From assembly GCA_930989535.1 (NCBI GenBank), contig CAKNLK010000005.1:62001-126000 (forward strand): a stretch of DNA of 64,000 bases, read 5' to 3'. A program made the position numbers and the translations under genes. The notes beneath the pieces were generated by a model. It made no database searches and was not told the origin of the DNA. It was given only the letters and a program-made list of their open reading frames with translations. Numbering within the stretch: the first letter of the stretch is position 1; every line of letters starts with the position of its first letter. This stretch comes from an uncultured Clostridia bacterium. Lineage in GTDB: Bacteria > Bacillota > Clostridia > Christensenellales > Borkfalkiaceae. Shown here in pieces: positions 19,471 through 49,887 of the stretch.

Positions 19471-20145
19471 CGTAAAATTTGCTTTAAGCTGTTAAAGCAA
19501 ATTTCTACGATTTGAGGGCGACACCGCCCATCAAACGCTCCCGCGTTTTCTGCGGCGTTTTCTCCCTCTTTATCGTCGCAACAAGGCGACGGACGGCAGG
19601 CGGCGCGCTTTGTTTGCCGCCACGCCCTCGTACACTTGTTGCTCCTCTTCCCCAAAAATCTCACACCGCTTCGCGCGTTGCGATTTTCGGGGACCCCGTT
19701 ATTTTTTAGGGCACACTTATTATTTACGGGCGCAAATTCACCCTCTTCCCATAAGCCGTAAGTATGCGGCAACTTAGGGGCGCTTTTAGCGGCTACGCAC
19801 GAGGCCGGTTTCTCACAATGCCCTATCGGGCATTGCTCGCTTCCGCCTCGGCTCCGCCGCCTTATTCACGAAAATCTCGCTTCGCTGCGATTTTCCGTGA
19901 GCTATTTGGATATATTTTATAATAATCTCTCGCGCAAGCAAAACCACGCTTTTGCGTTAGCGCACCCCAATTTGCAAATACTTTTGCTTTTGCAGGAAAG
20001 GTAAAGACGCGCGATTTTGTTATATGTGTGCGCTTAATTATCGCGCGGCGAGGAAAACTCCGACGGTCAGCGGCAAAAGCCGCGTGCCGTGGGGTTGTCC
20101 TCCAATCTCGGAAATTTGTTTTGTCAGCTCAAAACAAATTTCGAG
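19471..20145. repeat. Hairpin-rich intergenic element, copy A
   Basis: Fills the whole accC-accB gap. The left end is a hairpin (19471-19509, loop AAGCTG) touching the accC ribosome site. Then a 187-bp module (about 19516-19702) with nested stems including CCCCAAAAATC/GATTTTCGGGG, a CCCGT/ACGGG hairpin whose loop has AGGGCACACTTATTAT, a CACGAAAATC/GATTTTCCGTG hairpin (about 19866-19904), the GCGCAAGCAAAACCACGC segment, the core hairpin (arms 20008-20015 and 20040-20047, loop TTTGTTATATGTGTGCGC), a GAGGAAAACTCC hairpin, and a final hairpin 20107-20145 with loop TCAGCT just behind the accB stop. No gene is seen inside. Confidence 0.85.
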
Positions 20146-20151
20146 AACCTC

Positions 20152-20613
20152 TTAAAATATCTTAAACAAAATCTGCCCGAACTCGACCAAAGAGCCGTTA
20201 TCCGCGCAAATTTCCACGATTTCGCCGTCCGTTTCCGCAACGACGTCGTTCATCAGCTTCATCGCCTCGATAATGCACAGCGTGTCCCCTTTTTTGACTT
20301 TGCTGCCCACCTTGACGAACGGCTCCGCATCGGGCGAGGGCGCGGCATAAAAGATGCCCACCATCGGCGATTTGATGTCGCGGTATTTGTTGTAATCCTT
20401 GATGTCCGCCGCGCCTTCCTCGCCGGAAACCGCCTTTTCTTCGGGTGCGGACTGCACGTATTGCAACGGAGCCGGCATGTACGCGGGCGCCGCGCTTCCG
20501 CTCTCCAGCTTCAAAGAAAAATTCTCCTCCGCCGAGTTTTCCGTGATTTCCATCTTCGCAAGCCCGCTCTCCTTGAACAGGTTGATGAGCTCGCGCAATT
20601 TTTTCTTATCCAT
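20152..20613 (-). CDS. accB: Acetyl-CoA carboxylase, biotin carboxyl carrier protein
   Basis: A 153 aa carrier protein. The C-terminal biotinyl domain has the biotinylation motif EAMKLMN (Lys at about 118) within the usual hammerhead (SPMVGIFYAAPSPDAEPFV ... VKKGDTLCIIEAMK ... VEFGQILFKIF). The N-terminal DKKKLRELINLFKESGLAKMEI helix is typical of bacterial BCCP, followed by an Ala/Pro linker. It lies between fabF and accC, as in many Firmicute fab operons. AGGAG ribosome site. Confidence 0.95.
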   Translation of the reverse strand: MDKKKLRELINLFKESGLAKMEITENSAEENFSLKLESGSAAPAYMPAPLQYVQSAPEEKAVSGEEGAADIKDYNKYRDIKSPMVGIFYAAPSPDAEPFVKVGSKVKKGDTLCIIEAMKLMNDVVAETDGEIVEICADNGSLVEFGQILFKIF

Positions 20614-20686
20614 ATTTATACACTCCTAACGCCTATAAAAAATGCGTTTATCGCAATTACAATGAAATAAACGCATAATTCAGTGT

Positions 20687-21919
20687 TCAAATTTTCCGAA
20701 AAGCGAGGCAGCCGTTATGCCCGCCGAACCCGAGAGAGGTGGAAAGCGCGAATTTCAGCTCCGCCTTGATTGCCTCGTTCGGGGTGATGTCGAGGTCGCA
20801 CTCCTCGTCTTTGACGCGGTAATTGATGGTGGGAGGCACGATTCCCTCGTCGAGCGCGAGGATGGAGGCAATCGCCTCGATGCCGCCCGCTGCGCCGAGC
20901 ATGTGCCCCGTCATCGACTTGGTGGAGGAAACGCGCAGCTCGTACGCGCCCTGCCCGAACGCGCGCTTCAACGCGAGCGTTTCCGTTTTATCGTTGAGCG
21001 GCGTGCCCGTGCCGTGCGTATTGACGTACACGTCTCTGCCCGCTGCGATGCCGCCCTCCTTCGCCGCGAGCTCGATTGCCTTTGCGGAAGCAATCGCCTC
21101 GGGGTTGGGCGCCGTCATATGATAGGCGTCGTTGGTGCAGCCGTAGCCGACCACTTCGGCGTAAATTTTCGCGCCGCGCGCCTTGGCGTGCTCGTATTCC
21201 TCGAGCATGACAACCGCGCCGCCCTCGCCCATGACAAAGCCCGCGCGCTCCTTGTCGAACGGAATGGATGCGCGGTTTTTATCCTCGCTCTGCGAGAGGG
21301 CCTGGCAGCTGATGAAGCCCGCGAAGCACAGCGGCGTAATTGCCGCCTCGCTGCCGCCGGCGAGCATGGCGTCCGCATAGCCGTGCTTGATGGCGCGGTA
21401 CGCCTCGCCGATACTGTTGGTGGAAGTGGCGCAGGCCGTGACGATGGCGACGTTCGGGCCCTGCGCGTTGTATTTGATGGCCACCGTGCCCGAAGCGATG
21501 TTGGAAATCATCATCGGGACGAAGAAGGGAGATACCCTGCCGGGGCCCTTTTCGACTAATTTGGAATGTTCGGTAACCAGCGTATGAATGCCGCCGATGC
21601 CCGAACCGATATACACGCCGAACCGCTCCGGCTCGACGCTTTCGGCGGTCATGCCGCTGTCCTCATACGCCTGCGTAGCCGCCGCGACGGCGTATTGGCA
21701 GTAGAGGTCGGTCTTGCGGACGTCCCCCTTCGGCATATAGAGGGTAGGGTCGAAATCGCGGACTTCGCCCGCGAATTTGCACTTATAGTCTGTGATATCG
21801 AACTTGGTGACGATGTCGATGCCGCAGACGCCCTTTTTCATATTTTCCCAGGTCGTTTTTACGTCGTTGCCGAGCGGCGAAACCGCGCCCAACCCTGTTA
21901 CGACGACTCGTTTTTCCAT
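20687..21919 (-). CDS. fabF: 3-oxoacyl-ACP synthase II (KAS II)
   Basis: A 410 aa condensing enzyme extending acyl-ACP with malonyl-ACP. The catalytic triad is visible: Cys in VTACATSTNSIGEAYR, His in NTHGTGTPLND, His in STKSMTGHMLGAAGGIEA. The N-terminus MEKRVVVTGLGAVSPLG matches FabF exactly, fixing the start; the ribosome site is AAGGAAGG. It is separated from fabG by repeat element B. Confidence 0.96.
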   Translation of the reverse strand: MEKRVVVTGLGAVSPLGNDVKTTWENMKKGVCGIDIVTKFDITDYKCKFAGEVRDFDPTLYMPKGDVRKTDLYCQYAVAAATQAYEDSGMTAESVEPERFGVYIGSGIGGIHTLVTEHSKLVEKGPGRVSPFFVPMMISNIASGTVAIKYNAQGPNVAIVTACATSTNSIGEAYRAIKHGYADAMLAGGSEAAITPLCFAGFISCQALSQSEDKNRASIPFDKERAGFVMGEGGAVVMLEEYEHAKARGAKIYAEVVGYGCTNDAYHMTAPNPEAIASAKAIELAAKEGGIAAGRDVYVNTHGTGTPLNDKTETLALKRAFGQGAYELRVSSTKSMTGHMLGAAGGIEAIASILALDEGIVPPTINYRVKDEECDLDITPNEAIKAELKFALSTSLGFGGHNGCLAFRKI

Positions 21920-21929
21920 AAAAAAACCT

Positions 21930-22363
21930 TCCTTCGCGCAAAATTTCTCAAAAGAGATGAGAGCTTTTGCTTGATTTCAGAGAAAACCCAACATTCGCCG
22001 CTTTTCCCGCGGCTCTGTGTTCGGTTTTTTCTCTTTGCGCGCTTTTTCAGGGCTCTCATACCCTTATGCGCGCAAATTCACTTTTTCCGCTTGTGCCTTT
22101 CCGCATATTGGGGGCGCTTTTTGAAAAACGTCGTTTTCAAACGCGCAAAATATTATTAAATAATTACTCGCGCAAGCAAAACCACGCTTTTGCGTTAGCG
22201 CACCCCTATTTGGCAATCCCTTGCCTTACAGAAAGGGTGAAGTTGCGGCATTCTAATAATATGTGTGCCCTTAAAGATGCCGCAACGAGGGGAAAACCGC
22301 TCGGGTTTCCCCTTAAACTCACGGCGTTTCGCAGGCAACAGCTTGCCGAGAAACGCGTGAACT
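21930..22363. repeat. Hairpin-rich intergenic element, copy B
   Basis: Occupies the fabF-fabG gap. Left part: a GAGAAAACC / GGTTTTTTCTC hairpin (about 21979-22033) and a GCGCGC-flanked loop containing AGGGCTCTCATACCCTTAT. Right part: GCGCAAGCAAAACCACGC, the core hairpin (arms TTGCGGCAT 22243-22251 and ATGCCGCAA 22277-22285 around TAATAATATGTGTGCCC), a GGGGAAAACC/GGTTTCCCC hairpin, and an end hairpin 22324-22356 with loop ACAGCT, 11 bp behind the fabG stop. No gene is supported inside it. Confidence 0.8.
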
Positions 22364-22366
22364 GTT

Positions 22367-23104
22367 TCACATATCCATTCCCCCGTCAACCCGTAAAACG
22401 ACGCCCGTGATGTAGCGCGCCGCGTCGGAGACGAGGAATTTGACCGCCTGCGCGATGTCTTCCGTTTCGCCCAACGCCCCGAGGGGAATGAGCTTGTACA
22501 TCGCTTGCTTCTGCTCCTCGGTGAGAGCGTCGGTCATCGCCGTTTTGATAAAACCGGGCGCGACGGCGTTCGCCGTGATGTTCCGCGAGCCGAGCTCCTT
22601 GGCGACCGATTTGGTCAGCCCGACAATGCCCGCCTTGGACGCGGCGTAGTTCGCCTGCCCCGCGTTGCCCATGAGCCCGACGACCGAGCTGATGGAGACG
22701 ATGCGGCCGTAGCGCTTGCGCATCATGTACGGCGTGACGTGCTTGACCATGTTGAAGCAGCCCTTGAGATTGATGCCGAGCACCCTGTCCCAATCCGCTT
22801 CTTCCATGCGCATAATGAGTTTATCCGCCGTGATGCCCGCGTTGTTGACGAGGATATCGATTTTGCCGAAATCCTTGACGATTTGGTCTACGACTGCCTT
22901 TGTAGCCGAAAAATCGGATACGTCGCAGCGATAATAGCGCGCGGTGACACCCGCCGCTGCGAGTGCGTCCATCGTTTCCTTGGCGGCGGATTCGTCGCTG
23001 TAATCGACGACGGCGATATCTGTATTGTCTTGGGCGAGGGTGAGCGCGATTTTCGCGCCGATTCCCCTGCCCGCGCCCGTGATGAGGGCGACTCTGTTTT
23101 CCAT
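22367..23104 (-). CDS. fabG: 3-oxoacyl-ACP reductase
   Basis: A 245 aa short-chain dehydrogenase reducing 3-ketoacyl-ACP with NADPH. Visible: the nucleotide-binding TGAGRGIG, NNAGIT, catalytic Ser in SISSVVG, YAASK (Tyr-x3-Lys), and the C-terminal GGMDM close typical of FabG. The start is set by MENRVALITG and the AGGAG site. The ribosome site is immediately preceded by the terminal hairpin of repeat C, and repeat B starts directly after the stop, so this gene is bracketed by two elements. Confidence 0.96.
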   Translation of the reverse strand: MENRVALITGAGRGIGAKIALTLAQDNTDIAVVDYSDESAAKETMDALAAAGVTARYYRCDVSDFSATKAVVDQIVKDFGKIDILVNNAGITADKLIMRMEEADWDRVLGINLKGCFNMVKHVTPYMMRKRYGRIVSISSVVGLMGNAGQANYAASKAGIVGLTKSVAKELGSRNITANAVAPGFIKTAMTDALTEEQKQAMYKLIPLGALGETEDIAQAVKFLVSDAARYITGVVLRVDGGMDM

Positions 23105-23117
23105 AGAAAGAACTCCT

Positions 23118-23664
23118 TTTCTCACGAAAACCTCGGCGAGCTGTCGCCTGCGGTTTTCCGTGATTTGTGGGCGACACCGCCGTTCCAACGCTTTCGCGTT
23201 TTCTGCGGCGTTTTCTCCCTCTTTGCGCTCGTCGCATCAAGGCGACGGACGGCAGGCGGCGCGCTTTTCTTGCCGCCTTACCTTCGTGTGCTTGTTGCTC
23301 CTCTTCCCCAAAAATCTCACACCGCTTCGCGCGTTGCGATTTTCGGGGACCCCGTTATTGAGGGCTCTCATACCTTTATGCGCGCAAATTCACTCTTTCC
23401 GCGTATGCCTTTCGGCATATTGGGGGCAAAAACGAAAATTGCGATTTCCGTTTTTGCAAGTTATTATTTTAATAATCTATCGCGCAAGCAGAATCACATT
23501 TCTGCGCCAGCGCAACTCAATTTGGCAATCCCTTGCCTTACGGAAGGGGTGAAGTTGCGGCATTTTATAATATGTGTGCCCTTAATATGCCGCAACAAGG
23601 GGAAAACCGCTCGGGTTTCCCCTCCAATCGCAGTAAATTGTTTCGTCAGCTCGAAACAATTTAC
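23118..23664. repeat. Hairpin-rich intergenic element, copy C
   Basis: Fills the fabG-fabD gap. Left end hairpin 23123-23162 (CACGAAAACC / GGTTTTCCGTG, inner loop GAGCTG) abuts the fabG ribosome site. The 190-bp module shared with copy A follows (about 23168-23358), then AGGGCTCTCATACC, GCGCAAGCAGAATCAC, the core hairpin (arms TTGCGGCAT 23555-23563 and ATGCCGCAA 23587-23595; loop with TTATAATATGTGTGCCC), GGGGAAAACC/GGTTTCCCC, and the end hairpin 23633-23664 (loop TCAGCT) just behind the fabD stop. Long open frames through it are by-products of GC-rich repeats. Confidence 0.85.
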
Positions 23665-23676
23665 GCGAGCAATCTT

Positions 23677-24513
23677 TCACCCTCTCTGCACCAGCCCCGT
23701 GAGCACTTTGCCCGGGCCGACTTCGACGAATTCTTCCACGCCGCGCGCCTTCATGTTCGCGACCGTTTCGGTGAACCGAACGGGCGAGCACATCTGCTTG
23801 GCGAGCGTGGCCGCGAAATCCCCCTCGTACGGCTGTGCCGTGAGGTTGGCATATACATCCATGCGCGGCGCGTTCATCGTGAGCGTGCGCAAAAACTTTT
23901 CAAACTCCTGCGATTCCGGCTGCAATTCGGGGCAGTGGAACATGCCCGAAACGCGCAGCTTCATCGCGCGGCCGCCCGCTTCCTTGACTTTGGCGGTGAA
24001 TTCCTCCTCCGCCTCCGCGCGGCATGCGACGACCGTCTGCAAAGCGCCGTTGTAGTTGGCGGGGTGTGTGTTCACGCCGTCGCACAGCGCTTCGACCTTG
24101 TCCGCCGTAAGCTTGACGGCGGCAATCATGCAGCCTTTGACACGCTCGGTGTACGCGTCCATCAGCTCCGCGCGCCTGACGATGGCGCGGAACGCGTCCT
24201 CTTCGGACAGAACGCCCGCAAAGCAGAGCGCGGGCACTTCGCCCACCGAAAAGCCGCACACGCAGTCGGGCGCGCCCAGTTCCTCCTCTTTCGCATACGC
24301 GTACGCGAGATCTGCGAGGAACATGGTCGGCTGGGTGAGGAGCGTTCTGTTCAGCTCCTCCTGCGTGCCGCTGAGCATTTTATCGACGACGCCGGGCTGA
24401 ATGCTCTCGGCGAGGTCGAAGAGTTTTTTGACTTTCGGGAGGTCTTTTACGTCCCCCGCCATGCCGGGAACCTGCGCTCCCTGCCCGGCGAAAAGGAAAG
24501 CTATACGTCCCAT
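23677..24513 (-). CDS. fabD: Malonyl-CoA:ACP transacylase
   Basis: A 278 aa enzyme loading malonate onto ACP. Landmarks: FLFAGQGAQVPGM, the nucleophile motif GFSVGE (the family usually has GHSLGE, so the residue before Ser is Phe instead of His), and SGMFHCPEL carrying the second catalytic His. Its ATG lies 13 nt inside the fabK 3' end with GGAGGGC upstream, so translation is coupled to fabK. The His-to-Phe change does not remove the catalytic Ser. Confidence 0.93.
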   Translation of the reverse strand: MGRIAFLFAGQGAQVPGMAGDVKDLPKVKKLFDLAESIQPGVVDKMLSGTQEELNRTLLTQPTMFLADLAYAYAKEEELGAPDCVCGFSVGEVPALCFAGVLSEEDAFRAIVRRAELMDAYTERVKGCMIAAVKLTADKVEALCDGVNTHPANYNGALQTVVACRAEAEEEFTAKVKEAGGRAMKLRVSGMFHCPELQPESQEFEKFLRTLTMNAPRMDVYANLTAQPYEGDFAATLAKQMCSPVRFTETVANMKARGVEEFVEVGPGKVLTGLVQRG

Positions 24514-25442
24514 TTGACGCCCTCCATCAGCTTTTCCGCCTGCGCCATGATTTCGTCAATCATTTCCTTGGCGGGCTGTTCCTTTTTGACCATGCCCGCA
24601 ATCTGCCCCGCGAGGAAGCAGCCCTCCTCGGCGTTGCCGTCTTTGGCGGCCTTGCGCAGAGAGCCGACGCCGAACTGTTCGAGCTGTTCGTCGGGGATGT
24701 TGGAATCCGCCTCCAGCTTCGCGTAGGCGTTCATGTACGTGTTTTTGATGGCGCGGACGGGGTGCCCCAGCCGCTTGCCCGTGACCATGGTGGAAATATC
24801 CTTGGCGGCGAGCACCTTCTTTTTATACTCCGCGCTGACCGTGCATTCGTCGGCGACCAGAAAGCGGGTGCCCATCTGCACGCCGCACGCGCCCAAAGCG
24901 AACGCCGCGACCATGCCCCTGCCGTCGCCGATGCCGCCCGCCGCCACGACGGGGATGCTCACCGCGTCGACGACCTGCGGCACGAGCGCCATCGTCGTCA
25001 GATCGCCGACGTGGCCGCCGCTCTCGCCGCCCTCGGCGATGACCGCGTCTACGCCCGCGCGCTCGACCATTTTCGCGAGCGCCGTGGATGCCACGACGGG
25101 CAGGATCTTGACGCCCGCCTCCTTCCACAGTTTGACGAAGCGGGAAGGGTTGCCCGCGCCCGTGGTGACGACGGGAACCTTTTCCTCGGCGACCATCTGC
25201 GCCACTTCCTCGACGTGCGGGCTCATCAGCATGATGTTCACGCCGAAGGGCTTATCCGTCGCCGCGCGGCACTTTCTGATTTCCTCGCGCACCCAATCGG
25301 CGTTGGCGTTCATCGCGGAGATGATGCCCAGCCCGCCCGCATTCGAGACCGCGCTCGCCAGCGATGCGTCGGCAATCCACGCCATGCCGCCCTGAATGAT
25401 GGGGTGGCGGATGCCCAGAAGTTTTGTTAATTTCGTCTGCAT
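24501..25442 (-). CDS. fabK: Enoyl-ACP reductase II (FMN-dependent)
   Basis: A 313 aa TIM-barrel flavoprotein that catalyses the last step of each elongation cycle. Landmarks: LLGIRHPIIQGGMAWIA, GLGIISAMNA, AEGGESGGHVG (FMN phosphate/active-site loop), AAGGIGDGRGM and QMGTRFLVADEC. FabK replaces FabI in many Firmicutes and is insensitive to triclosan. It follows acpP after 11 nt with no clear Shine-Dalgarno, suggesting coupling. Confidence 0.95.
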   Translation of the reverse strand: MQTKLTKLLGIRHPIIQGGMAWIADASLASAVSNAGGLGIISAMNANADWVREEIRKCRAATDKPFGVNIMLMSPHVEEVAQMVAEEKVPVVTTGAGNPSRFVKLWKEAGVKILPVVASTALAKMVERAGVDAVIAEGGESGGHVGDLTTMALVPQVVDAVSIPVVAAGGIGDGRGMVAAFALGACGVQMGTRFLVADECTVSAEYKKKVLAAKDISTMVTGKRLGHPVRAIKNTYMNAYAKLEADSNIPDEQLEQFGVGSLRKAAKDGNAEEGCFLAGQIAGMVKKEQPAKEMIDEIMAQAEKLMEGVKWDV

Positions 25443-25453
25443 CGTATCAAAAA

Positions 25454-25681
25454 TTACTTGTTGGCGACAGCCTCTTCGATTTTCGAAACGAGCTCGCCCA
25501 CGGTGGAGAGCTGCATGTTGTCGCCCAGAGAAATGTCGAACGCTTCCTCGATTTGCATGACGATGTCGACTTTGTCGAGGGAGTCGAACTCCAATTCGTC
25601 AAAGGTGGTTTCGGGGGAGATATTGAGGTCTTCGCCCTTGCACTCGCTCAAGATTTCCTGCAGCTTTTCCAAAATGTTCAT
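25454..25681 (-). CDS. acpP: Acyl carrier protein
   Basis: A 75 aa acidic four-helix carrier. The phosphopantetheine serine lies in ELEFDSLDKVDIVM (motif DSL). Length and charge are standard. It is placed between fabH and fabK, as in the Clostridia fab operon. Strong AAGGAG ribosome site. Confidence 0.97.
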   Translation of the reverse strand: MNILEKLQEILSECKGEDLNISPETTFDELEFDSLDKVDIVMQIEEAFDISLGDNMQLSTVGELVSKIEEAVANK

Positions 25682-25694
25682 GATTTTTTACTCC

Positions 25695-26846: not shown

Positions 26847-26848
26847 AT

Positions 26849-32299: not shown

Positions 32300-32697
32300 C
32301 GCCGCCTTGTTCACGAAAATCTTACTGCGCTGCGATTTTCCGTGAGTCTGCGGTTTTATATTTTTAATAATCGGATGCGCGTTTGAGAACCGCGCTTCTC
32401 AAAAAGCGCACTCAATTTGCCGCATACTTGCGGCTTTCGGGAAGAGGGTGAATTTTTTGCCTTAAATAAACATCTGCAAAAGCAAAAACCACGCTTTTTG
32501 CTTTTGCACTCAATTTGCCGAAGGGCTTTTGCAGGAAAGGTGAAGCCGCGCGATTTTGTAATATGCGTGCCCCTAATTCATCGCGCGGCGAGGAAAACTC
32601 CGAACGCCAAAAGCGCACCCGCTTGGGTGCGCTTTTCGTTGGGGTTTTCCTCAAGCTCTCGACAATTTGTTTTGTCTGCTCAAAACAAATTGTGAGA
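32300..32697. repeat. Hairpin-rich intergenic element, copy D (nested double)
   Basis: Lies behind the ypeB-like gene. It holds a CACGAAAATC/GATTTTCCGTG hairpin (about 32311-32345), then a first partial unit (GCGCGTTTGAGAACCGCG ... GGGTGAATTTTTTGCC), then a second unit with the core hairpin (arms GCCGCGCGAT 32545-32554 and ATCGCGCGGC 32580-32589, loop TTTGTAATATGCGTGCCC), a long GAGGAAAACTCC hairpin carrying an inner AAAAGCGCACCC/GGGTGCGCTTTT stem, and the end hairpin 32661-32694 (loop TCTGCT), 7 bp behind the gene stop. Upstream of it, 32147-32299 holds a run of ten C (32256-32265) and no gene. Confidence 0.82.
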
Positions 32698-32701
32698 ACC
32701 T

Positions 32702-34381
32702 CTACATAATCGCCTTCCCTCTGTCCGTCCCTGTTACGACGAAAATTTCCGCGGTGTCGCCCGTCTTTGCGTCGATATACGCGTAGTACGTTCTTCCGCC
32801 GAACTCGCCCGCAATTTCATAGGTGAGAATCTCATTCCCGTCCACCTCGATGAGCGCCTTGCGCACGCCCTGCACCTCGTCCATGCGGGCCTCGGCGTTC
32901 GCCTTGACGCGGCTCGCAGACACGGTTGCCGAGCCGATATTCCGCTCGGTGTGGTTGGCGAGGTACGAATGTGCCTCCAACCCCGTGACGGCGCCCTTTT
33001 CCTCGCAGACCTTGACTTTGATCATGTCCGGATAGACGATTGTGCCGCTCTGCTCGTAGGCGAAGTTGATGGTGCACTCGGTGCCCGCCTCGCTCGACCA
33101 GACGGGTTTCAACCCATCGTAGCCGCACTTTTTGAGGAACTTTTCGGCGATGCGGATGCAGGCGTCTGCGTCGTAGTTATGGTTTCTGCACGCCTCGAAG
33201 CTGTCGAGCAGGGCGAGATGCCCGCCGCGCTCGGTGATTTGCGCGAAGTAATTTTTTCCCTTCCCGTCCTCGAACTCGAAGTTGTACATCGCAAAGCTCT
33301 TGCTCTCCGTTTTGCCGGCAAGGCGCATATTCGCGGGCTTATACCCCTCGAACAGCTCCTTGGCGCGCTCGGTGGCCTGCGCCTCGCTCAGCGCCTTTTC
33401 GGAAGCGAGCATCTTGCTCTCGCGCTTTTTCGCGCCCTGCGAGAAGGGGCCGTCCTCGATGCTCTTGGGCACTTCGACCGTCGGCTCGCGCAGCGTGCCG
33501 AAGTTTTTAAGGAAGTCGCCCTCCTCGGAGAACAGCTCTTCGATGCTGCCCAGCCGCGCGCTCTCGATGAGCTCGGGCATCGCCGCGCGGATTTTTTCCG
33601 TCGTCGAATACATATACTCGATGACTTCCTTTTCCTCCGCGGTCAGGCTGCCGCCGTGCGCCAACTTGTGCAAAAGAGACTTGGAATAATCGCCCGTGCG
33701 GTTGAAAAAGGCGGTGAGGTTCTCCGTTTCCTGCCCCTCGACGGGGAAAGCCTCGATGCACTTTTCCGCCAGCTCGCTCTGCACGAGCACGTCCGTCAGA
33801 AGTTTCTGCATCTCGTAATTGCCGTCGGCGATGCGCGCCTTGGCGAGGTTCGCGTCCAGATTTTCGACGAGTTCCGAAAACTCGTACACGGAGCTCTGGT
33901 ACCCGCCCGAAAGCTCGGTTCGGGTGTTCATGAGGTCGAAATACCCGACGGTGACGACGGCGCCGAGCGCCAGCACTGCGACGGACAGGGATACGACCGC
34001 CGCCAGCCAGCCGCCGAACCCGGGGGCGCGCTTATCGCCGCGCTGTTCCCGCTTTTCCGCCTTGCGCTCGGCGCGGGCGGCGCGGCGGTGCAGCCGCTCC
34101 TCTTCCTCCGCCGCTTCACGCGCGGCGCGCTCGCTCTTTTTTTCCAATTTCGCCTCGGCGCGCGCCTCCTTTTTGGCGCGCTTCATCTCCGCGGCAGCGA
34201 TGCGCTTTTCGGCGCGGGCCTCTTCGCGCGCGGCCTCCGCCGCCTGCTCCGCCTCCCGTATGCGCTCTTCGGAGACGAACGTTCCGCCGCCCGCGGCGTC
34301 CGCCTGCGATTCTCTACCCGATTTGCGGCGGGCAATCTCTTCTACCTTTTCCGCGCCGCTCGATAAATGTTTGTCTTTCAT
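32702..34381 (-). CDS. ypeB: Germination protein YpeB-like, with long N-terminal coiled coil
   Basis: A 559 aa protein encoded directly after sleB, as in Bacillus, where YpeB stabilises and localises SleB in the spore. Residues about 165-340 are the YpeB helical domain (NYEMQKLLTDVLVQSELAEKC), and residues 345-555 carry PepSY-type domains (ending YYAYIDAKTGDTAEIFVVTG). Unusually, residues 30-125 form a highly charged Ala/Glu/Lys/Arg coiled coil ahead of the membrane helix (about 128-150); Bacillus YpeB lacks such an extension as far as I know. The gap to sleB is 12 bp. Confidence 0.85.
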   Translation of the reverse strand: MKDKHLSSGAEKVEEIARRKSGRESQADAAGGGTFVSEERIREAEQAAEAAREEARAEKRIAAAEMKRAKKEARAEAKLEKKSERAAREAAEEEERLHRRAARAERKAEKREQRGDKRAPGFGGWLAAVVSLSVAVLALGAVVTVGYFDLMNTRTELSGGYQSSVYEFSELVENLDANLAKARIADGNYEMQKLLTDVLVQSELAEKCIEAFPVEGQETENLTAFFNRTGDYSKSLLHKLAHGGSLTAEEKEVIEYMYSTTEKIRAAMPELIESARLGSIEELFSEEGDFLKNFGTLREPTVEVPKSIEDGPFSQGAKKRESKMLASEKALSEAQATERAKELFEGYKPANMRLAGKTESKSFAMYNFEFEDGKGKNYFAQITERGGHLALLDSFEACRNHNYDADACIRIAEKFLKKCGYDGLKPVWSSEAGTECTINFAYEQSGTIVYPDMIKVKVCEEKGAVTGLEAHSYLANHTERNIGSATVSASRVKANAEARMDEVQGVRKALIEVDGNEILTYEIAGEFGGRTYYAYIDAKTGDTAEIFVVTGTDRGKAIM

Positions 34382-35799: not shown

Positions 35800-36202
35800 T
35801 GTTCACGAAAATCTCGCGCCGCGCCTTAATTCACGAAAACCTCGACGAGCAGTCGCCTGCGGTTTTTTGTGAGAATTTGGATTTATATTATTATAAATAT
35901 TTGCGCGTTTGAGAACCGCGTTTCTCAAAAAGCGCACTCAATTTGCCGCATACATACGGCTTTTGCAGGAAAAGTGAAGCCGCGGCACTTAAAACAATTA
36001 CTCGCGCAAGCAAAACCGCGCTTTTGCGCTGCGCAACCCTGTTTGCAAACACCTTTGCTTTTGGGAAGAGGGTGAATTTTTTGCCATTTATAATATGTGT
36101 GCCCTTAAAAGGGCAAAAAAGAGGGAGAAACCGCCGCCTTGTCGACAGGTTTCTCCCTTTCCTCACGGAAAAAAGTTTTATCAGCTTAAAACTTTTTTCG
36201 TG
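35800..36202. repeat. Hairpin-rich intergenic element, copy E (nested double)
   Basis: Lies between the DUF2156-GNAT gene and spoIIR. A hairpin at 35831-35872 (CACGAAAACC arm, inner loop GAGCAG) is followed by GCGCGTTTGAGAACCGCG, a first unit cut off at a degenerate core (GAAGCCGCGGCACTTAAAA), then a second unit with the core hairpin (arms TTTTTTGCC 36077-36085 and GGCAAAAAA 36112-36120, loop with TTATAATATGTGTGCCC), a GAGGGAGAAACC hairpin, and the end hairpin 36164-36202 (loop ATCAGCTT), 8 bp behind the stop of the next gene. No gene is seen inside. Confidence 0.82.
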
Positions 36203-36210
36203 AACTTATT

Positions 36211-37629
36211 TCACATCGCCGCCGTCTTATAAAAATAAAAGTACGTTTCGTCCTCGCCGCAGGGGCGCATGCCCGCCGATTTGAGCGTATAGGAACTGGC
36301 GGTATTCTCTTTATAGCACTTCGCCTCGATGCGCTCCAGCCCCAGCTTGCAGAAACCGTATTCCATCAGCCCGAGCAGCGACTCGCGCGCGAATCCCCTG
36401 CCCTGCCGCTCGGGCAGGATGCGCATGCCGATTTCCGCCTCCGCCGCGTAGCCGAAGTGATACAGCACCACCTCGCCCACGAGCGCGCCCTCGAAGTATA
36501 CGCCGAGCGGAAGCTCGTTCTTCTTTTTGAAATCGTTGCGGATATCCTCCAAAAACCACGAGTCGGGCGCGGTATCGGGCGCGTCGTCGTGCCAGTTATA
36601 CCCCCAATAGCGGTTGAGCTGGTCGTCGCGCGCGAGGCGGGCAAACTCGTGCACGTCCTCGCCCGCGACCTCCTTCAACACGAGCCGCTCCGTTTCCAAT
36701 TCGGGCAGCTTGGAGAGGGAATCGATGGGGCGCTTGACGGCTAAATTGTACTTATCGACCAGCCGCAAAGGCAGATATTGCAGCTTGGATTTGCGCAGGC
36801 CGAAATCGCCCGAATCGTCCTCGCGGTTGATGTATTGGATTCCGTTTCCGCAAAAGGTCTGCGCGAACAGCTGCGCGATGGTCGGGTACGCGCCCTGCAC
36901 GCCGCGCAGCGCCTTTTCGATGTGCACGACCATCATGTCGCCGCAGCGCTCGCCCACGGAAAATGCGACGATTTTGCCGCCCGCGCGCAGAAACCCCGCA
37001 TACATGCCGAGCTCGCCGATGTGCGGCAGAATTTCGAACACGCCCTTCATTTCCTCGTCGGCATAGGTATCCTCCTTGGCGTACTGCGACGCGGAATATT
37101 CCTGCAAAAACGCCTCTACCGCGGGCATATCCTGCGAATCGTAGGTGCAGAACTCAAAATCTGGATACGTCTTCTTAAATTTGTTGACATGGTTGCGCTG
37201 TCCGCTGTACCGGCCGCCCGCATACGTCTTAAAATCTTCCGCGTTGTACAGGTAATCGCGCCAGCGGCGGATGTTGGAGACGTGCACCTCCGCGCCGTAG
37301 CGCAGGACAAGCGAAGGCAGCTTTTCGCGCGGGACGTTTGTGAAGTGCAGGCGCACGTCGTTTTCGCGGCAGTACGCCTCGAGCTTTTCCACGCCGCGCT
37401 CCTCGGCGGCCTCGTCTCCGTCCTTAGAAAGCGGATAGTAAAAATAGCTGTTCCCGAAATAATGGTCGACGAGGAACAGGCACCCCTCCTCCTCGCAGTA
37501 CTGCGTAGAGAGATATCTGCCCCACATGAACAAAAGCCCCGCCGAATAGTTGCCGATTTGCCCCTGCTGCGCCTGAAAATAGGGCAGCAACCGGGGCAGG
37601 TTTTTCCGCTCTAACTTACGAAATTGCAT
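36211..37629 (-). CDS. DUF2156 (LPG-synthase-like) and GNAT acetyltransferase fusion
   Basis: A 472 aa two-domain cytoplasmic protein. Residues 1-300 match DUF2156/phosphatidylglycerol lysyltransferase C-terminal domain, a double-GNAT fold using aminoacyl donors (RKLERKNLPRLLPYFQAQQGQIGNYSAGLLFMWG, INREDDSGDFGLRKSKLQYLPLRLVDKYNL). Residues 310-472 are a RimJ/RimL-type GNAT (ELETERLVLKEV, AEIGMRILPERQGRGFARESLLGLMEYGF with the acetyl-CoA loop, ENTASSYTLKSAGM). The MQFRKLE start has a GGAGAG site at a long spacing. Target unknown; no membrane flippase domain as in MprF. Confidence 0.82.
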   Translation of the reverse strand: MQFRKLERKNLPRLLPYFQAQQGQIGNYSAGLLFMWGRYLSTQYCEEEGCLFLVDHYFGNSYFYYPLSKDGDEAAEERGVEKLEAYCRENDVRLHFTNVPREKLPSLVLRYGAEVHVSNIRRWRDYLYNAEDFKTYAGGRYSGQRNHVNKFKKTYPDFEFCTYDSQDMPAVEAFLQEYSASQYAKEDTYADEEMKGVFEILPHIGELGMYAGFLRAGGKIVAFSVGERCGDMMVVHIEKALRGVQGAYPTIAQLFAQTFCGNGIQYINREDDSGDFGLRKSKLQYLPLRLVDKYNLAVKRPIDSLSKLPELETERLVLKEVAGEDVHEFARLARDDQLNRYWGYNWHDDAPDTAPDSWFLEDIRNDFKKKNELPLGVYFEGALVGEVVLYHFGYAAEAEIGMRILPERQGRGFARESLLGLMEYGFCKLGLERIEAKCYKENTASSYTLKSAGMRPCGEDETYFYFYKTAAM

Positions 37630-38580: not shown

Positions 38581-38586
38581 GGCGAT

Positions 38587-38625
38587 AGTATAACACCCTC
38601 TTGTTGTAATGTCAAGCATTACAAC
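38587..38625 (-). promoter_or_regulatory. Oxidoreductase promoter with Rrf2-type operator
   Basis: Minus-strand TTGACA (38610-38615), 17 bp, TATACT (38587-38592). The -35 lies in the inverted repeat TTGTAATG-5-CATTACAA (38604-38624), which differs in two central bases from the palindrome at 42862-42882 in front of the Rrf2 gene. Confidence 0.85.
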
Positions 38626-42811: not shown

Positions 42812-42844
42812 GATTTTTCGTCCTTTTGCAATATTCTATACCGT

Positions 42845-42882
42845 ATTATAGCGCATTATTATTGTAATGTCAATAATTACAA
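42845..42882 (-). promoter_or_regulatory. Promoter of the Rrf2 gene with operator palindrome
   Basis: Minus-strand TTGACA (42868-42873), 17 bp, TATAAT (42845-42850). The operator TTGTAAT-7-ATTACAA (42862-42882) covers the -35 exactly as in the oxidoreductase promoter at 38604-38624. Confidence 0.87.
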
Positions 42883-42924
42883 CAACTGAAATTGTTTTTT
42901 GCGCAGGCAGTTTTGCCGAATGGG

Positions 42925-43010: not shown

Positions 43011-43700
43011 ATGCGCATTTCCGGACTGCAAAAGACGACGCTGCTCGATTTCCCCGGGCGGGTGGCGTGCACGATTTTTTTAAACGGGTGCAATTTCCGC
43101 TGCCCGTTCTGCCAAAATTCGGAAATTTTGGACGGGCGCGGCGGCGAGGATATCTCCGAGGAGGAGCTGCTTGCCTTTCTGCGCAGGCGCAGGGGCATTT
43201 TAGACGGCGTTTGCGTTTCGGGCGGGGAACCGCTCGTGCACGCGGAAACGCTCGACTTGCTCAGTAAAATCAAGGCGCTCGGCTGCGACGTAAAGCTGGA
43301 CACGAACGGCGCATTCCCCGAGCGGCTGAAGGAGGCCGCCCATGCGGGGCTCGTCGATTTTGTGGCGATGGACATCAAAAATTCGCCCAAAAACTACGCG
43401 AAAACGGCGGGGGTTGCCGTCGATATGGCGAAAATCGAGGAGAGCGCGAAATTTTTGATGGAGAGCGGCATCGAGTACGAATTCCGCACGACGGTCGTCA
43501 AAGAACTGCACGCGGCGGAGGATTTTATCCGCATCGGGCAGTGGCTGCGCGGGGCGAAGCGGTACTTTTTGCAGGCCTTCCGCGACGGCGATACGGTATT
43601 GAAAAGCGGGCTTACCCCCTGCACGGACGCGGAGATGCAGACGTTTAAGCAACTGTTGAAGCCGTACATCCCGAACGTTTTAATCCGCGGAGAGGAGTGA
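43011..43700 (+). CDS. Radical SAM activase (anaerobic ribonucleotide reductase activating protein type)
   Basis: A 229 aa iron-sulfur enzyme. The cluster motif CNFRCPFCQN (CxxxCxxC) sits at about 27-34 after MRISGLQKTTLLDFPGRVACTIFLNG, which matches the NrdG-like TIGR02495 group. SAM-binding motifs SGGEPL and KLDTNG follow. Such proteins generate a glycyl radical on a partner enzyme; no partner (nrdD or pfl) is in the window, so the target is uncertain. The start is set by AAGGAGAGG and the family N-terminus. Confidence 0.87.
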   Translation: MRISGLQKTTLLDFPGRVACTIFLNGCNFRCPFCQNSEILDGRGGEDISEEELLAFLRRRRGILDGVCVSGGEPLVHAETLDLLSKIKALGCDVKLDTNGAFPERLKEAAHAGLVDFVAMDIKNSPKNYAKTAGVAVDMAKIEESAKFLMESGIEYEFRTTVVKELHAAEDFIRIGQWLRGAKRYFLQAFRDGDTVLKSGLTPCTDAEMQTFKQLLKPYIPNVLIRGEE

Positions 43701-43859
43701 GCCCCGCCTTTATCCGTTTCACCTCGGTTTTAGGGCTGAATAAGTGGCGCGACTGTTCCGCCTTGTTTTACCCACGCCGACTGCGCGACGGTTTAAATGC
43801 TGAATATGGGGCTATCGCCCCATACCCCTCGAAGCCGACAGAACGATAAATAAAAACCA

Positions 43860-44134
43860 ACCAACAACGGCTTTCACTTTTAATCATTTACTCGCGCAAG
43901 CAAAACGATACTTTTAATCATCAACTGCGCGTCCGAAAACCATGCTTTTCGGAAAGCGCACTCCATTTGCCGTATGCTTACGGTTTTTTGGAAAGAGTGA
44001 ATTTGCGGCATTTTATAATATGCGTGCCCGTAAAAATGCCGCAAAGAGAGAAAATCCCGCCGTTCGGCTTGCGCCGACGGCGGGTTGTCTTTTTATTCGC
44101 AGAAAATCGCAGGCGTCAGCTCGCCGAGATTTTC
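43860..44134. repeat. Hairpin-rich intergenic element, copy F (nested)
   Basis: Between the activase gene and the APH-like gene. It contains CTCGCGCAAGCAAAACG, an interrupted unit (ACTGCGCGTCCGAAAACC ... GGAAAGCGCACTCC), the core hairpin (arms TTTGCGGCAT 44002-44011 and ATGCCGCAAA 44036-44045, loop with TTATAATATGCGTGCCC), a GAGAGAAAATCCCGCC hairpin, and an end hairpin 44102-44134 (loop GTCAGCTC), 10 bp behind the APH-like stop. The stretch 43701-43859 has only a short GGGGC/GCCCC hairpin (about 43806-43825) and no gene. Confidence 0.78.
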
Positions 44135-44144
44135 GCGAGCCTTT

Positions 44145-44891
44145 TTACTCATAATCGACAACATTTACCCACTTTTCGAGGAACGCCTGCTCCTCGGGTA
44201 CGGCCTTCGTGGTCTGGCTGGCGGCGACGATGGGCAGAGCCTTCTGCACCAACTGCTTGGCGATGCCCGTCTTTTCGCAGAACAGCTTTAAGTACTTTTC
44301 GGCGAGTTCGTCCTTCTTTTCCAGCTTGAACAGGAGGTAGGTACGCGCGGCGTCGCAACGGGCGTTGCCCTGCGTGGCGTGCGCCCAGTCGATGATGAAT
44401 TTGCGCCCGTCCGGCCCGACGATGATGTTGCCGGGGTTGAAATCGCCGTGGCAGAGCTTATCGTGTTCGGGCAGGGAATCGAGCAGGATGTGCAAATCGT
44501 AGCGCGTCGTTTTATCGAACTTGGTCGCGGAGATTTTGCGGTGCATCTTGTCCTTGAGCTTGGTCAAAAGCGGCACCTTCTGCGCGAGCACTTCCACCTG
44601 CAAATCGACAAATTCATTGAGGTATTGCTCTTCGTTGCCGGGGTTCTCGTCCATGAGCTGCTGGAGCGTTTTTCCCTCCACGTAGTCGAGAATGATTGCC
44701 CATTCGCCGTTGACCTTGGTGACCTCGTGCACGGCGGGCACGTTGAGGGAAGTGCCCTCCTCCACGCGCGCCGTGTTGAGCGCCTCGTTTAAAACGTCCG
44801 ACTTCGGATAGTTGTTTTTGAACAGCTTGACGAGCGTTTTTCCCTCGCGGTAGATAATTTTTTTATCCGTCTGCTGAATGATTTCCGCCAT
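44145..44891 (-). CDS. Aminoglycoside-phosphotransferase-like kinase (APH family)
   Basis: A 248 aa protein kinase-like-fold enzyme. The catalytic loop is LCHGDFNPGNIIVG and the metal-binding motif is FIIDWAHAT; the N-terminal lobe has VKLFKNNYPKSDVLNEALNTARV and the hinge WAIILDYVEGKTLQQLM. Such proteins phosphorylate small molecules; antibiotic resistance cannot be inferred. It follows adhE on the same strand after 15 bp, so the three genes rex, adhE and this one may be one transcript. Confidence 0.88.
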   Translation of the reverse strand: MAEIIQQTDKKIIYREGKTLVKLFKNNYPKSDVLNEALNTARVEEGTSLNVPAVHEVTKVNGEWAIILDYVEGKTLQQLMDENPGNEEQYLNEFVDLQVEVLAQKVPLLTKLKDKMHRKISATKFDKTTRYDLHILLDSLPEHDKLCHGDFNPGNIIVGPDGRKFIIDWAHATQGNARCDAARTYLLFKLEKKDELAEKYLKLFCEKTGIAKQLVQKALPIVAASQTTKAVPEEQAFLEKWVNVVDYE

Positions 44892-44906
44892 GATTTTTCT
44901 CCCTCC

Positions 44907-47507: not shown

Positions 47508-47522
47508 TTGACCTCTCCTTTT

Positions 47523-48179
47523 TTATTTTTCGCTTATCAAAATTTCCGCGAGGCGTTTGGACAGAATCGCGAGCGACGCCGCCATATCCTCGTTTTTAAC
47601 AGCTATATTTTCCGGCACGTTCAGGTGCACGGGCGCGAAGTTCCAAATCGCGCGCACGCCTCCCTCGATGAGCTCGTCCGCGACCTGCTGCGCCGCGCCC
47701 CTGGGCACCGCGATGATGCCGATGAGCACGTTCAGCCGCCGCACGAGGTGGCGTATCTGCTCCGCGTCGAAAATGCGGATGCCGTTTACCGTTTTGTCGA
47801 TGCGCTCGGGGTCGGAATCGAACACCGCGACGATGTTCAAACCGTAATTTTTGAACCCGTCGTAGCCCGCGAGCGCGCTGCCCAAGCCCCCCGCGCCGAC
47901 CAAAACCGCGTCCGTCACGTTGTCGTACCCCAAAATGCGGTTGATGTCGCCGATGAGGTCGGCAATTTCGAAGCCGAGCTTGGGTTTGCCCGCGACGGTG
48001 CTGATGACCGACAAATCTTTGCGCACCTGCACGGCATTGAGGTGCAGCTCCTCCGCAATCGCCGTGGAGGAAACCGTCTTTTCCCCGGCGGCCTCCTTCT
48101 CCTTCAGATACCTGTGGTAGGCAGGCAGCCTGCCGATTGTAGCCTTCGATACGTTCTGTATCTCCTTGTTGTTCCCCAT
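47523..48179 (-). CDS. rex: Redox-sensing transcriptional repressor Rex
   Basis: A 218 aa repressor: N-terminal winged helix (SKATIGRLPAYHRYLKEK ... VSSTAIAEELHLNAVQVRKDLS) and a Rossmann domain (AVLVGAGGLGSALAGYDGF, VAVFDSDPERI) binding NADH/NAD+. The start at MGNNKEIQNVSK is chosen from family alignment by eye; its ribosome site GGGGGCAG is poor. No clear Rex operator (TTGTTA-N6-TAACAA type) was found in front of rex or adhE. Likely co-transcribed with adhE from the promoter at 48235. Confidence 0.94.
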   Translation of the reverse strand: MGNNKEIQNVSKATIGRLPAYHRYLKEKEAAGEKTVSSTAIAEELHLNAVQVRKDLSVISTVAGKPKLGFEIADLIGDINRILGYDNVTDAVLVGAGGLGSALAGYDGFKNYGLNIVAVFDSDPERIDKTVNGIRIFDAEQIRHLVRRLNVLIGIIAVPRGAAQQVADELIEGGVRAIWNFAPVHLNVPENIAVKNEDMAASLAILSKRLAEILISEK

Positions 48180-48234
48180 TCTGCCCCCGTCCGCCGCATG
48201 CGCGGCGTGCAATCGATATTTTTTTATCGATAAA

Positions 48235-48264
48235 ATAATATCAAATAAAAGGGTGTTTTGTCAA
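48235..48264 (-). promoter_or_regulatory. Promoter of rex-adhE
   Basis: Minus-strand TTGACA (48259-48264), 18 bp, TATTAT (48235-48240). A short inverted repeat ATCGAT...ATCGAT lies just downstream (about 48212-48231). Confidence 0.75.
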
Positions 48265-48424
48265 ACGTATGGAGACGGAAAAATGCGCCGCCGAAAAAAT
48301 TAAAATTGGTAACGAAGATTGTAACTTTTTTTCAGTATGGCCCTTTTACGGCCTAATCATAGCAGATAATCGGCGCAATTTCAATACTTTTTAAAAATTT
48401 TTCTGTATTCTTAATAAAGAAAAT

Positions 48425-48442
48425 CCCCGCGTTAACGCGGGG
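48425..48442 (-). terminator. Terminator behind the XRE-pentapeptide gene
   Basis: CCCCGCG TTAA CGCGGGG, followed on the minus strand by ATTTTCTTTATT, 13 bp after the stop. Confidence 0.75.
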
Positions 48443-48454
48443 ACAAATTTTGAT

Positions 48455-49336
48455 TTAATAGATGCGATAGCTTGCGAACAGCTCGGCGAAAGGGCGCAAA
48501 AAGGGAGGCACAATATCGTTTATTGCGCGGGCGAGGGCGGCTTCCCCTTCGACAAACGCGCCGCCTTCGAAATAGCCGACCTGCGAAAACGGAGGCGTTT
48601 GGGATACAGCCATATAAAAGTTATAGAGCGCGCCGCCCGAGGATACCGTCCTGCCGATTGGCACGGCGGCAAACGCATAGTCGCCGACGGCCACGAACTG
48701 CGCCACGGCGAGCGCTCCAGCCGAAAAGAACCCGACCGCCACCGCGCCGTAGGCGATAAAGCCGAGCGCAACCGCACCGAGGGCAAGGAACAGCCCCGCC
48801 GCAATCGCACCGAGCGACAGAACGCCCAGAGAGAGGGCGCCCAAAGAAATCAGCCCGAGCGACAGGCACCCGAAGGACAACACGCCCATGGACAGAAACC
48901 CCACCGACACGACGCCGCGCGACTTAAACCCCACAGCCAGAATACCTTTGGCGGTCTTCCCCCACCCGAGGTTAATATGCACAAGAGGGATACCGCACAG
49001 CGTGCGGGCGCTCTTATATTCGTATTCGTAGAACCGCCCGAAGCGGATGAAGGGCGGATATGCGGCCGCCGCAGCGCCGCCCTGCCCCGCCTCGCCGCCC
49101 CTTACCGAAGCCGCAGCGGGTTTGTCCTGCGCGGAATCGTCCTCCTGCTTCAGCAGATAGTCGATGCTGCACTCCAAAAGGCGGGAAAGGCGAACGAGTT
49201 TTTCCGTTTCGGGGAAAGCCGCGTCCGATTCCCACTTAGAGACTGCCTGACGGGATACGCCGAGCGCGTCGGCGAGACCGCCCTGCGTCATACCGCGCTC
49301 ACGGCGGAGCTTTGCTATTTTTTGCCCCGTTGTCAT
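48455..49336 (-). CDS. XRE-family regulator with hydrophobic pentapeptide-repeat tail
   Basis: A 293 aa protein. Residues 4-60 are a Cro/C1 HTH (KIAKLRRERGMTQGGLADALGVSRQAVSKWESD). After an Ala/Gly linker, residues about 120-215 show a strict five-residue repeat with Gly every fifth position (GVVSV GFLSM GVLSF GCLSL and so on, about 8 clean units then looser ones), suggestive of a right-handed quadrilateral beta helix like pentapeptide-repeat proteins. The C-terminal 60 residues are unrelated. GGAGGAAAC sets the start. Role: DNA-binding regulator with an unknown structural or sensory tail. Confidence 0.82.
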   Translation of the reverse strand: MTTGQKIAKLRRERGMTQGGLADALGVSRQAVSKWESDAAFPETEKLVRLSRLLECSIDYLLKQEDDSAQDKPAAASVRGGEAGQGGAAAAAYPPFIRFGRFYEYEYKSARTLCGIPLVHINLGWGKTAKGILAVGFKSRGVVSVGFLSMGVLSFGCLSLGLISLGALSLGVLSLGAIAAGLFLALGAVALGFIAYGAVAVGFFSAGALAVAQFVAVGDYAFAAVPIGRTVSSGGALYNFYMAVSQTPPFSQVGYFEGGAFVEGEAALARAINDIVPPFLRPFAELFASYRIY

Positions 49337-49519
49337 AGTTTCCTCCGTATGCCGCACCGAAGGAGCGGCGCCGTATATTTTGAGCGCCTTGCTTTGCGCC
49401 CTTCAATGAATGATTATAGCAAAAAAATGAAAAAACGCCAACAACCTTCGTTTTCCTTTTGTCAATTTGCGGTTGCTTTTCATCTTTTTTATCATTTCGA
49501 TGGTGCGCGTGATAAATAT

Positions 49520-49887
49520 CCGATAATTTACTGCGCGTTTGAGAACCGCGCTTCTCAAAAAGCGCACCCAATTTGCCGCATACCTGCGGCTTTTGCGGGA
49601 AAGGTGAACGCGGCGCGATTTTATAATATGTGTGCCCCTATAGTATGGGGCCCCCGAAAATCGCAACGCGCGAAGCGGTGTGAGATTTTTGGGGAAAAGG
49701 AGCAACAAGTGTACGAGAGCTTGGCGGCAAGCTACGCGCACCGTCTGCCCTCCGTCGCCTTGTTGCGACGAGCGCCGCGGAGGAAAACTCCGAACGTAAA
49801 AAGGCGTACCGACTGCGGTACGCCTTTTTCGTTGGGGTTGTCCTCAAACTCTCGACAATTTGTTTTGTCAGCTCAAAACAAATTGTG
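49520..49887. repeat. Hairpin-rich intergenic element, copy G (with inverted module inserted in the core)
   Basis: Lies behind the gene ending at 49912. Parts in order: GCGCGTTTGAGAACCGCG, CTTCTCAAAAAGCGC, the left core arm CGCGGCGC (49609-49616) and conserved loop start TTTTATAATATGTGTGCCCC. Then, instead of closing, an inverted copy of the module seen in A and C (49647-49772, CCCCGAAAATCGC ... AACAAGTGTACGAG), and only then the right arm GCGCCGCG (49772-49779), the GAGGAAAACTCC hairpin with inner AAAAAGGCGTACC stem, and the end hairpin 49854-49887 (loop TCAGCT). The stretch 49337-49519 shows nothing else. Confidence 0.82.

Follow-up and report, generated by a model that had tools for sequence, protein, structure and literature searches.

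Mosaic hairpin elements anchored to stop codons in an uncultured gut Clostridia bacterium: a probable new family resembling REP and BIME repeats

Repetitive extragenic palindromic (REP)-like repeats are best known from Proteobacteria, and their spread and their siting at stop codons are still unsettled. Dispersed hairpins that are thought to be selfish are also found in organelle hosts, where the mitochondrial double-hairpin and repetitive hairpin-forming elements are not known to have a multi-block core. Among bacterial repeats, a bulge and the GTAG tag are named as recognition features of REPs in a passage of PMC8266576, and according to earlier work cited in a passage of PMC12306157, ribosomes can be stalled by E. 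coli REPs that lie no more than 15 nt from a stop codon. One passage of PMC8266576/PMC12306157 places 260 of 496 REPs (earlier work) and 446 of 4,072 (own count) at 15 nt or less from a stop. The relevant part of PMC3733652 describes CGTC-tagged REPs, including some RPE and dRS3 repeats, as lacking a transposase and as having stems of 8-9 bp and loops of 4-5 nt. Pneumococcal BOX elements are presented in a section of PMC3049150 as having the order boxA-boxB-boxC and as being currently little mobile. In the present study, we analysed hairpin-rich intergenic elements in 64,000 nt of contig CAKNLK010000005.1 from an uncultured Clostridia bacterium (this whole stretch is called the window), where seven copies, A to G, are found (Table 1). 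We consider it probable that these palindromic elements, which are mosaic, non-coding and non-autonomous, represent a new family that is similar to REPs and bacterial interspersed mosaic elements (BIMEs) and whose hairpins are exchanged as units.

A sequence-only reading of the window had proposed an unrecognised dispersed family with seven copies in a common block order, and this interpretation is supported. A direct-repeat search finds the blocks, and reading of the sequence shows their order. Two covariance models were used, R1 for the core (37 aligned units) and R2 for the end hairpin, called P5 (33 aligned hairpins). R1 scored 98.0, 125.0, 122.7, 96.5, 106.0, 90.3 and 60.7 bits in copies A to G, and R2 matched all seven copies at 58.9-68.1 bits; copies A-F are training rows of both models, and copy G, which is in neither, reached 68.1 bits with R2. 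Among 47 core matches 41 were kept, five being omitted for an inserted block and one for lacking the P5 loop motif. Alignment A1 comprises 22 of these 41 rows, alignment A2 37 of the 38 core rows listed (L035 omitted) and alignment A3 33 of the 35 P5s listed (L029 and L042 omitted). The genome of origin (G000) carries at least 88 R1 and at least 103 R2 matches, all but one of the latter at 53.6 bits or more; both figures are the numbers of candidates scored and are hence lower bounds. The model search thus returned, as had been expected, tens to about 100 copies per genome in the same block order, and the expected restriction to a clade was also seen: R1 matched 36 of the 40 genomes of the genus, the own genome included, and 5 of 151 genomes in a sample of the order under stricter filters. 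Rfam gave no match in the window at gathering thresholds; at E<=1 the region 19400-23700 yielded a single weak, unrelated match inside fabF, and loci L082-L085 yielded four weak matches with none at threshold. No paper on such a hairpin family was found in searches of an open-access library. What the sequence-only reading did not include is that P5 is anchored to stop codons, that units pair head to head, that the covariation is Watson-Crick only, that whole hairpins are swapped and that the elements are similar in kind to REP/BIME and BOX.

The unit begins with an AT-rich start and continues outward through H1, the box with H2, P3, P4 and P5. H1 is a hairpin with loops such as CCACGC, the linker after it holds the small hairpin H2 and the box GGAARRGGTGAA, and the loop of the core hairpin P3 is TATAATATGYGTGCCC. 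The GAGGAAAACC hairpin of the sequence-only reading (P4) is present, but it occurs in five types and not in one. P5 is an end hairpin of 45 nt with 17 pairs, a 6-nt loop, the foot TCNC/GNGA and a bulged purine near the foot. Its loop is TCAGCT in 19, ACAGCT in 12 and TCTGCT in 2 of the 33 aligned hairpins, and its foot base and bulge are fully linked (A with G in 16/33, G with A in 8/33, T with G in 9/33). A full-size element consists of two head-to-head units with P5 at both outer ends and measures about 390-680 bp, as in L016 (156-591), L023 (1616-2043), L037 (1452-1908) and window copies A and C, and the conserved multi-hairpin core between paired ends is roughly 120 nt long. The remaining copies keep a single unit, to which some of them add a short end hairpin on the opposite side. 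For the window, the number of seven copies was retained and their layout was revised: A, B and C are head-to-head unit pairs, the left end of B being a diverged hairpin (by eye; without R2 match), and D and E have a second, weaker core in tandem. The box type before P3 matches the P4 type after it in 36 of the 37 units of A2, both sets of types having been defined after the data were seen, and the outer and inner halves of the P3 between them are found in several combinations. By eye, the inner hairpin of P4 has A-run and T-run flanks in copy D (32590-32650) and copy G (49800-49835). Such a P4 resembles a bidirectional intrinsic terminator, and P4 hairpins may be captured terminators. Kissing between the H1 and P3 loops was rejected as their complementarity was no higher than with shuffled partners (4.41 vs 4.43 in 39 units).

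The stems are maintained by compensated changes. Double-change cells numbered 138 in the core and 160 in P5 against shuffle means of 38.5 and 52.5, and none of 500 shuffles was as high in either case, which excludes pairing by chance. Versions of the core and P5 pairing slid out of register scored far below the true one, and two-sided changes were present at 9 of 10 P3 pairs and 14 of 17 P5 pairs. In P3 and P5 together, we counted 897 Watson-Crick, 1 G.T, 4 A.C and 29 other cells (P5: 546, 1, 0 and 14; P3: 351, 0, 4 and 15, respectively). An RNA fold selected on one strand is expected to leave G.U intermediates. A fold of the plus-strand RNA, suspected from CACTC/GGGTG pairing, is disfavoured by the missing G.U in P3 and P5. 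In the favoured reading, hairpins would be cut, copied or exchanged as DNA hairpins, by some helper or by host recombination, and the changes would be Watson-Crick only because both arms change together in such an exchange; exchange at the DNA level is likely in our estimation. At L078 (4858-5585), a whole unit of 405 bp is repeated in tandem, and remnants of half P5s follow; the two units agree at 312 of 322 compared positions, yet their P5s differ by compensated pairs. The same stems might instead be functional RNA structures of the 3' untranslated region (3'-UTR) acting in termination, mRNA protection or ribosome release, inherited vertically, selected as RNA and immobile. The predicted folds of P5 in gene sense favour such a role: their energies lie between -16.3 and -23.1 kcal/mol across the seven window copies, with 0 of 200 shuffles as good in six copies and 7 of 200 in copy F. 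The single G.T beside 897 Watson-Crick cells argues against it, as does the observation by eye that no clear U-tract follows P5, and overall we regard this explanation as unlikely.

The position of P5 relative to genes was examined with our own codon-usage caller of open reading frames (ORFs), using 107 P5s (window 60977 omitted), which were scored if they lay between two called genes (80 gaps). The 66 P5s that face a stop codon lie at a median distance of 5 nt, a position that an RNA element of the 3'-UTR would also explain, and 60 of them are within 15 nt (overlaps included). Among single-ended copies facing a stop, 48 of 54 were within 15 nt, compared with 8.7 expected by random placement and a highest value of 19 in 20,000 simulations; the null places 230 nt per element in free space only, with selection outside the model. 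In gaps between tandem genes, P5 faces the stop in 46 cases, the start in 12 and both in 12 (binomial p 8e-6), and the 26 P5s facing starts lie a median of 16.5 nt away, 19 of them within 40 nt. Outer ends were within 15 nt of a stop in 34 of 50 cases in a first set of loci, selected by similarity to copy C, and in 27 of 45 in a second, selected by R2 matches (38 of 40 loci used; L145 and L146 omitted), the two sets being in agreement. In the window, the right-hand end is 3-7 nt from the stop codon in copies A-F and 20 nt in copy G. In loci of relatives, 12 of 15 usable P5s were within 40 nt of a stop and 10 within 15 nt (25 of 30 matches taken, five at <=36.5 bits omitted); this count is no independent repeat because most of these sites are orthologous to own sites. 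Once in place, P5 would form an mRNA hairpin about 5 nt after the stop and may affect how translation ends, as suggested by comparison with the E. coli REPs. An effect on the upstream gene is conceivable, and we put it forward tentatively.

Relatives have both occupied and empty sites. A FabG search returned 20 loci, of which 12 from the genus were compared at the fabD-fabG-fabF spacers. An R1 or R2 match was present in 7 of the 12 (own included) and in none of the other 5, where the spacers can be very short. Two genomes, G017 and G020, have empty fab spacers and cores elsewhere. The missing R1 matches in 4 of 40 genus genomes and the five fab loci without a match count against immobile 3'-UTR structures. 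L057 and L058, with one copy each and equal scores, show the pattern expected of inheritance. Modules have been exchanged between copies: in the window and 34 loci, 16 pairs of segments from otherwise different copies, 60-132 bp in length, show 93-98% identity, and many of their ends seem to be near module borders (by eye). A chicken-gut assembly represents a close relative, with long gene stretches matching the own genome at roughly 82-95%, and carries elements where the own genome has copies A, B, C, E and F, often with different contents. Its site A has two P5s that together cover 141 bp, measured to their outer ends, and no core detected by R1, compared with 679 bp for the own copy. By eye, the hairpin types at the left ends of B and C are interchanged between this assembly and the own genome. 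In the relative locus L079, no R1 or R2 match was found at the stop that copy D adjoins in the own genome, and a cobalamin riboswitch (3658-3849, plus strand; 100.7 bits) lies near this stop, which indicates that the neighbourhood has changed as well.

Whole hairpins have been replaced at fixed positions. We compared 11 orthologous pairs of P5s, eight or nine from the chicken-gut assembly and the others from two further relatives; an R2 match was needed on both sides, and positions with diverged hairpins (B left, C left, L139 right) were excluded. Four pairs are near-identical (44-45 of 45-46 positions) and one has 41 of 45, its four base differences making two compensated pairs. The other six have different stems, with 22-32 of 45-46 positions matching, and their adjacent 120 nt match at 97-114 of 120. 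Sites that stay occupied as stems change would be expected if structure alone matters, as in a 3'-UTR RNA, but these six swaps altered whole stems beside well conserved flanks, so the place was kept and the hairpin replaced whole. Since a donor copy adjoins a different gene, its outer side would offer little homology, and ordinary gene conversion would need to stop inside the final few bases of P5. Whole-hairpin replacement with an exact outer edge is, we infer, the best hint of a structure-guided process.

Hairpins are also seated within hairpins. In some copies, including G and the left part of A, the P3 loop holds a block of two hairpins of roughly 135 nt. At L036 (2121-2238), a hairpin of about 68 nt sits in the loop of a P5 and separates its matched arms, and insert-free P5s with the same arms occur at window 36160-36204 and L034 (2148-2192). 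The own genome has five such 68-nt hairpins (L036, L147-L151), each with a 3' half of P5 on its right (by eye); both P5 halves match only in L036, and one insert has no left half (by eye). The inserts mark the loops as break or insertion points, but fresh insertion is no commoner than exchange between copies. Replacement of whole end hairpins at stops and nested palindromes, together with the lack of a REP-type transposase, would also suit selfish DNA spreading by the hairpin unit. Such DNA would keep its outer edge exact and settle in the loops of other hairpins, both arms changing in one event; we hold this account to be rather doubtful.

The search for a mobilising enzyme bears on several further explanations. 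The family could belong to the REP superfamily and be mobilised by a REP-associated tyrosine transposase (RAYT) or another Y1 (HUH) transposase, as the bulged hairpin, the inverted pairs, the position after stops, the mosaics and the Y1 genes of G000 would allow. Y1 transposases were found in 23 of the 40 genus genomes, the own one included and among them all four without cores, and not in G003, G006, G007, G018, G031 and G039, which have 65-85 cores; these genomes are 66-91% complete, so that single absences are weak evidence. The presence of Y1 therefore does not track copy number. In addition, the two Y1 proteins of own-genome loci L045 (G000 C19) and L046 (G000 C15) resemble IS200 TnpA by eye, L045 has no convincing P5 match (best R2 E 0.53), and there is no GTAG or CGTC tag as a rule, the strings GTAG, CTAC, CGTC and GACG occurring 6 times in all near the ends of 58 strong P5s. 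This explanation is thus very improbable. Guide-RNA-like or bridge-RNA-like molecules left by IS605/IS110-type systems would fit a structured unit that ends at the outer boundary; the TnpB domain PF07282, however, passes its cut-off in 1 of the 40 genomes of the genus (15 have some match at E<=0.001), no Rfam match reaches threshold, almost no G.U is present and the loops are conserved, not variable guides, and we give this possibility hardly any weight. An ordinary miniature inverted-repeat transposable element (MITE), that is, a DDE insertion sequence shortened by deletion and bounded by terminal inverted repeats, would account for full elements being inverted dimers of about 390-680 bp with like ends. 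The ends of ordinary MITEs are normally conserved in sequence. Here the end sequences vary widely while pairing is kept and no target-site duplication was seen, which makes a MITE highly unlikely. A search of the own genome, which is about 92% complete, gave no reverse transcriptase. A PhoH protein gave an IstB-like match at E 1e-4, below the cut-off of that domain. The earlier statement that no transposase is nearby holds for ten window proteins, in which no transposase domain was detected and to which that check was confined; as for an autonomous copy, two sets of ten proteins contained no transposase domain, most neighbours being outside the scan. Loss of the hairpin nuclease SbcCD as a cause of tolerance is unsupported: SbcD passes its cut-off in 31 of the 40 genomes, including G000, G003, G007, G031 and G039, but not in the high-copy G006 and G018.

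Of the five order-sample genomes with R1 matches, one is the own genome. A second genus of the same family contributes two (3 and 4 matches), and a different family the remaining two (3 and 12 matches at 32-40 bits). By eye, the other-family copies keep H1, a GGGTGAA box and P3, P4 starts with GAGGGGAAAACC in most of them, and their end hairpins are different and their nesting deeper. Extra short palindromes with GTCCAC..GTGGAC arms were noted among the nested hairpins of L092 and L093 (genome G169, other family). An exact-pattern scan of the named genome collection gave six stretches, all from uncultured Clostridia and five of them from one chicken-gut assembly; phage and plasmid collections had no blastn match to copy B, and viral contigs had no exact match to one pattern.

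Compared with the described systems, the family is nearest in kind to REP/BIME, and BOX is the nearest modular parallel. As REPs and BIMEs are characterised in the parts of PMC8266576 and PMC12306157 drawn on here, the common ground includes bulged imperfect hairpins, inverted pairs, mosaics, a mostly intergenic location and a share of copies close to stops. High copy number is a further REP-superfamily trait of our elements. With regard to BIMEs, which are mosaics of REPs and inverted REPs joined by linkers, P5 and inverted P5 flank cores, but P5 is no tagged REP. The differences are the absence of the GTAG tag and of a tracking Y1/RAYT, the longer P5 (45 nt) and the multi-hairpin core of roughly 120 nt. 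Like the CGTC-tagged REPs in the relevant part of PMC3733652, the family has palindromic dimers, no dedicated transposase and copies inside ORFs, but it lacks the CGTC tag, and P5 has 17 pairs and a 6-nt loop. With BOX, as described in a section of PMC3049150, it shares modular composite structure, ordered blocks and a strong predicted fold; the two differ, on this description, in that our units are head-to-head and anchored to stops. The family is not filed as REP because the tags are missing and the hairpin is longer; by analogy, it may nevertheless work like one, and a place in a REP/BIME-like class appears likely.

Several observations weigh against this reading. Y1/IS200/RAYT enzymes were rejected as a general helper and no helper was found, an absence that genome incompleteness weakens. 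P4 does contain G.U (10 cells at one pair), and selection on both RNA strands could be another source of Watson-Crick-only pairing. Stop anchoring may partly reflect tolerated positions. R2 matched none of the 60 further genomes sampled from the order. Two of these, G053 and G044, do have R1 matches, and hence conservation of the core does not extend to the end hairpin. Furthermore, near-identical dispersed segments are few in the window and 34 loci, where no fresh transposition was caught and no target-site duplication was defined.

Table 1. Positions of the seven copies, their parts and related features in the window
Feature	Position	Strand	Parts and remarks
Copy A	19469..20147	+	R1 and R2 matches; 4 nt from stop at 20152
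Copy A, left parts			outer P5 19469-19513 (-); reversed core with hairpin block 19650-19780 (-)
Copy A, right parts			short end hairpin 19865-19903 (-); core 19964-20102 (+); P5 20103-20147 (+)
Copy B	21978..22361	+	R1 and R2 matches; 5 nt from stop at 22367; reversed core 21978-22114 (-); core 22202-22314 (+); P5 22316-22361 (+)
Copy C	23121..23669	+	head-to-head dimer; R1 and R2 matches; 7 nt from stop at 23677; P5 23121-23166 (-); reversed core 23317-23426 (-, 24.8 bits); core 23514-23624 (+); P5 23625-23669 (+)
Copy D	32310..32698	+	R1 and R2 matches; 3 nt from stop of YpeB-domain gene at 32702; short end hairpin 32310-32348 (-); truncated core 32409-32504 (+); core 32507-32652 (+); P5 32654-32698 (+)
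Copy E	35830..36204	+	R1 and R2 matches; 6 nt from stop at 36211; P5 35830-35875 (-, 38.3 bits); truncated core 35935-36029 (+); core 36035-36159 (+); P5 36160-36204 (+)
Copy F	43880..44139	+	repeat search, R1 and R2 matches; 5 nt from stop at 44145; H1 blocks from 43880; core 43959-44077 (+); P5 44094-44139 (+)
Copy G	49523..49891	+	repeat search, R1 and R2 matches; 20 nt from called stop at 49912; core 49565-49690 (+); P3 loop with roughly 135-nt hairpin block (by eye); P5 49847-49891 (+)
135-nt block	19573-19703; 23229-23359; about 49650-49780		both orientations in window; also in L034, L036, L038
Lone P5 without core	60977-61022	-	R2 61.7 bits; beyond the range of the seven copies

The lone P5 lies in the 3' coding part of the ORF at 60556-61056 (plus strand), and the hairpin would consequently encode part of its C-terminus. 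This ORF resembles an HNH endonuclease by eye and has no Pfam match at 0.001. A separate direct repeat of 40 nt, at 38586-38625 and 42844-42883, is 78% identical between its two copies and ends in a TTGTAATGTCAA..TTACAAC-type inverted motif; it is perhaps an operator.

The interest of this family lies in its strict anchoring to stop codons, its Watson-Crick-only covariation and the replacement of whole hairpins in place, with no known helper found. Exact-edged replacement of a whole hairpin, at a place where a donor copy would have little sequence in common, is hard to obtain by ordinary homologous recombination and points to a process guided by structure. Since an uncultured gut Clostridia family has the same positional habit as REPs without their tag or a tracking Y1 transposase, this habit appears to be separable from the known mobilising enzyme.

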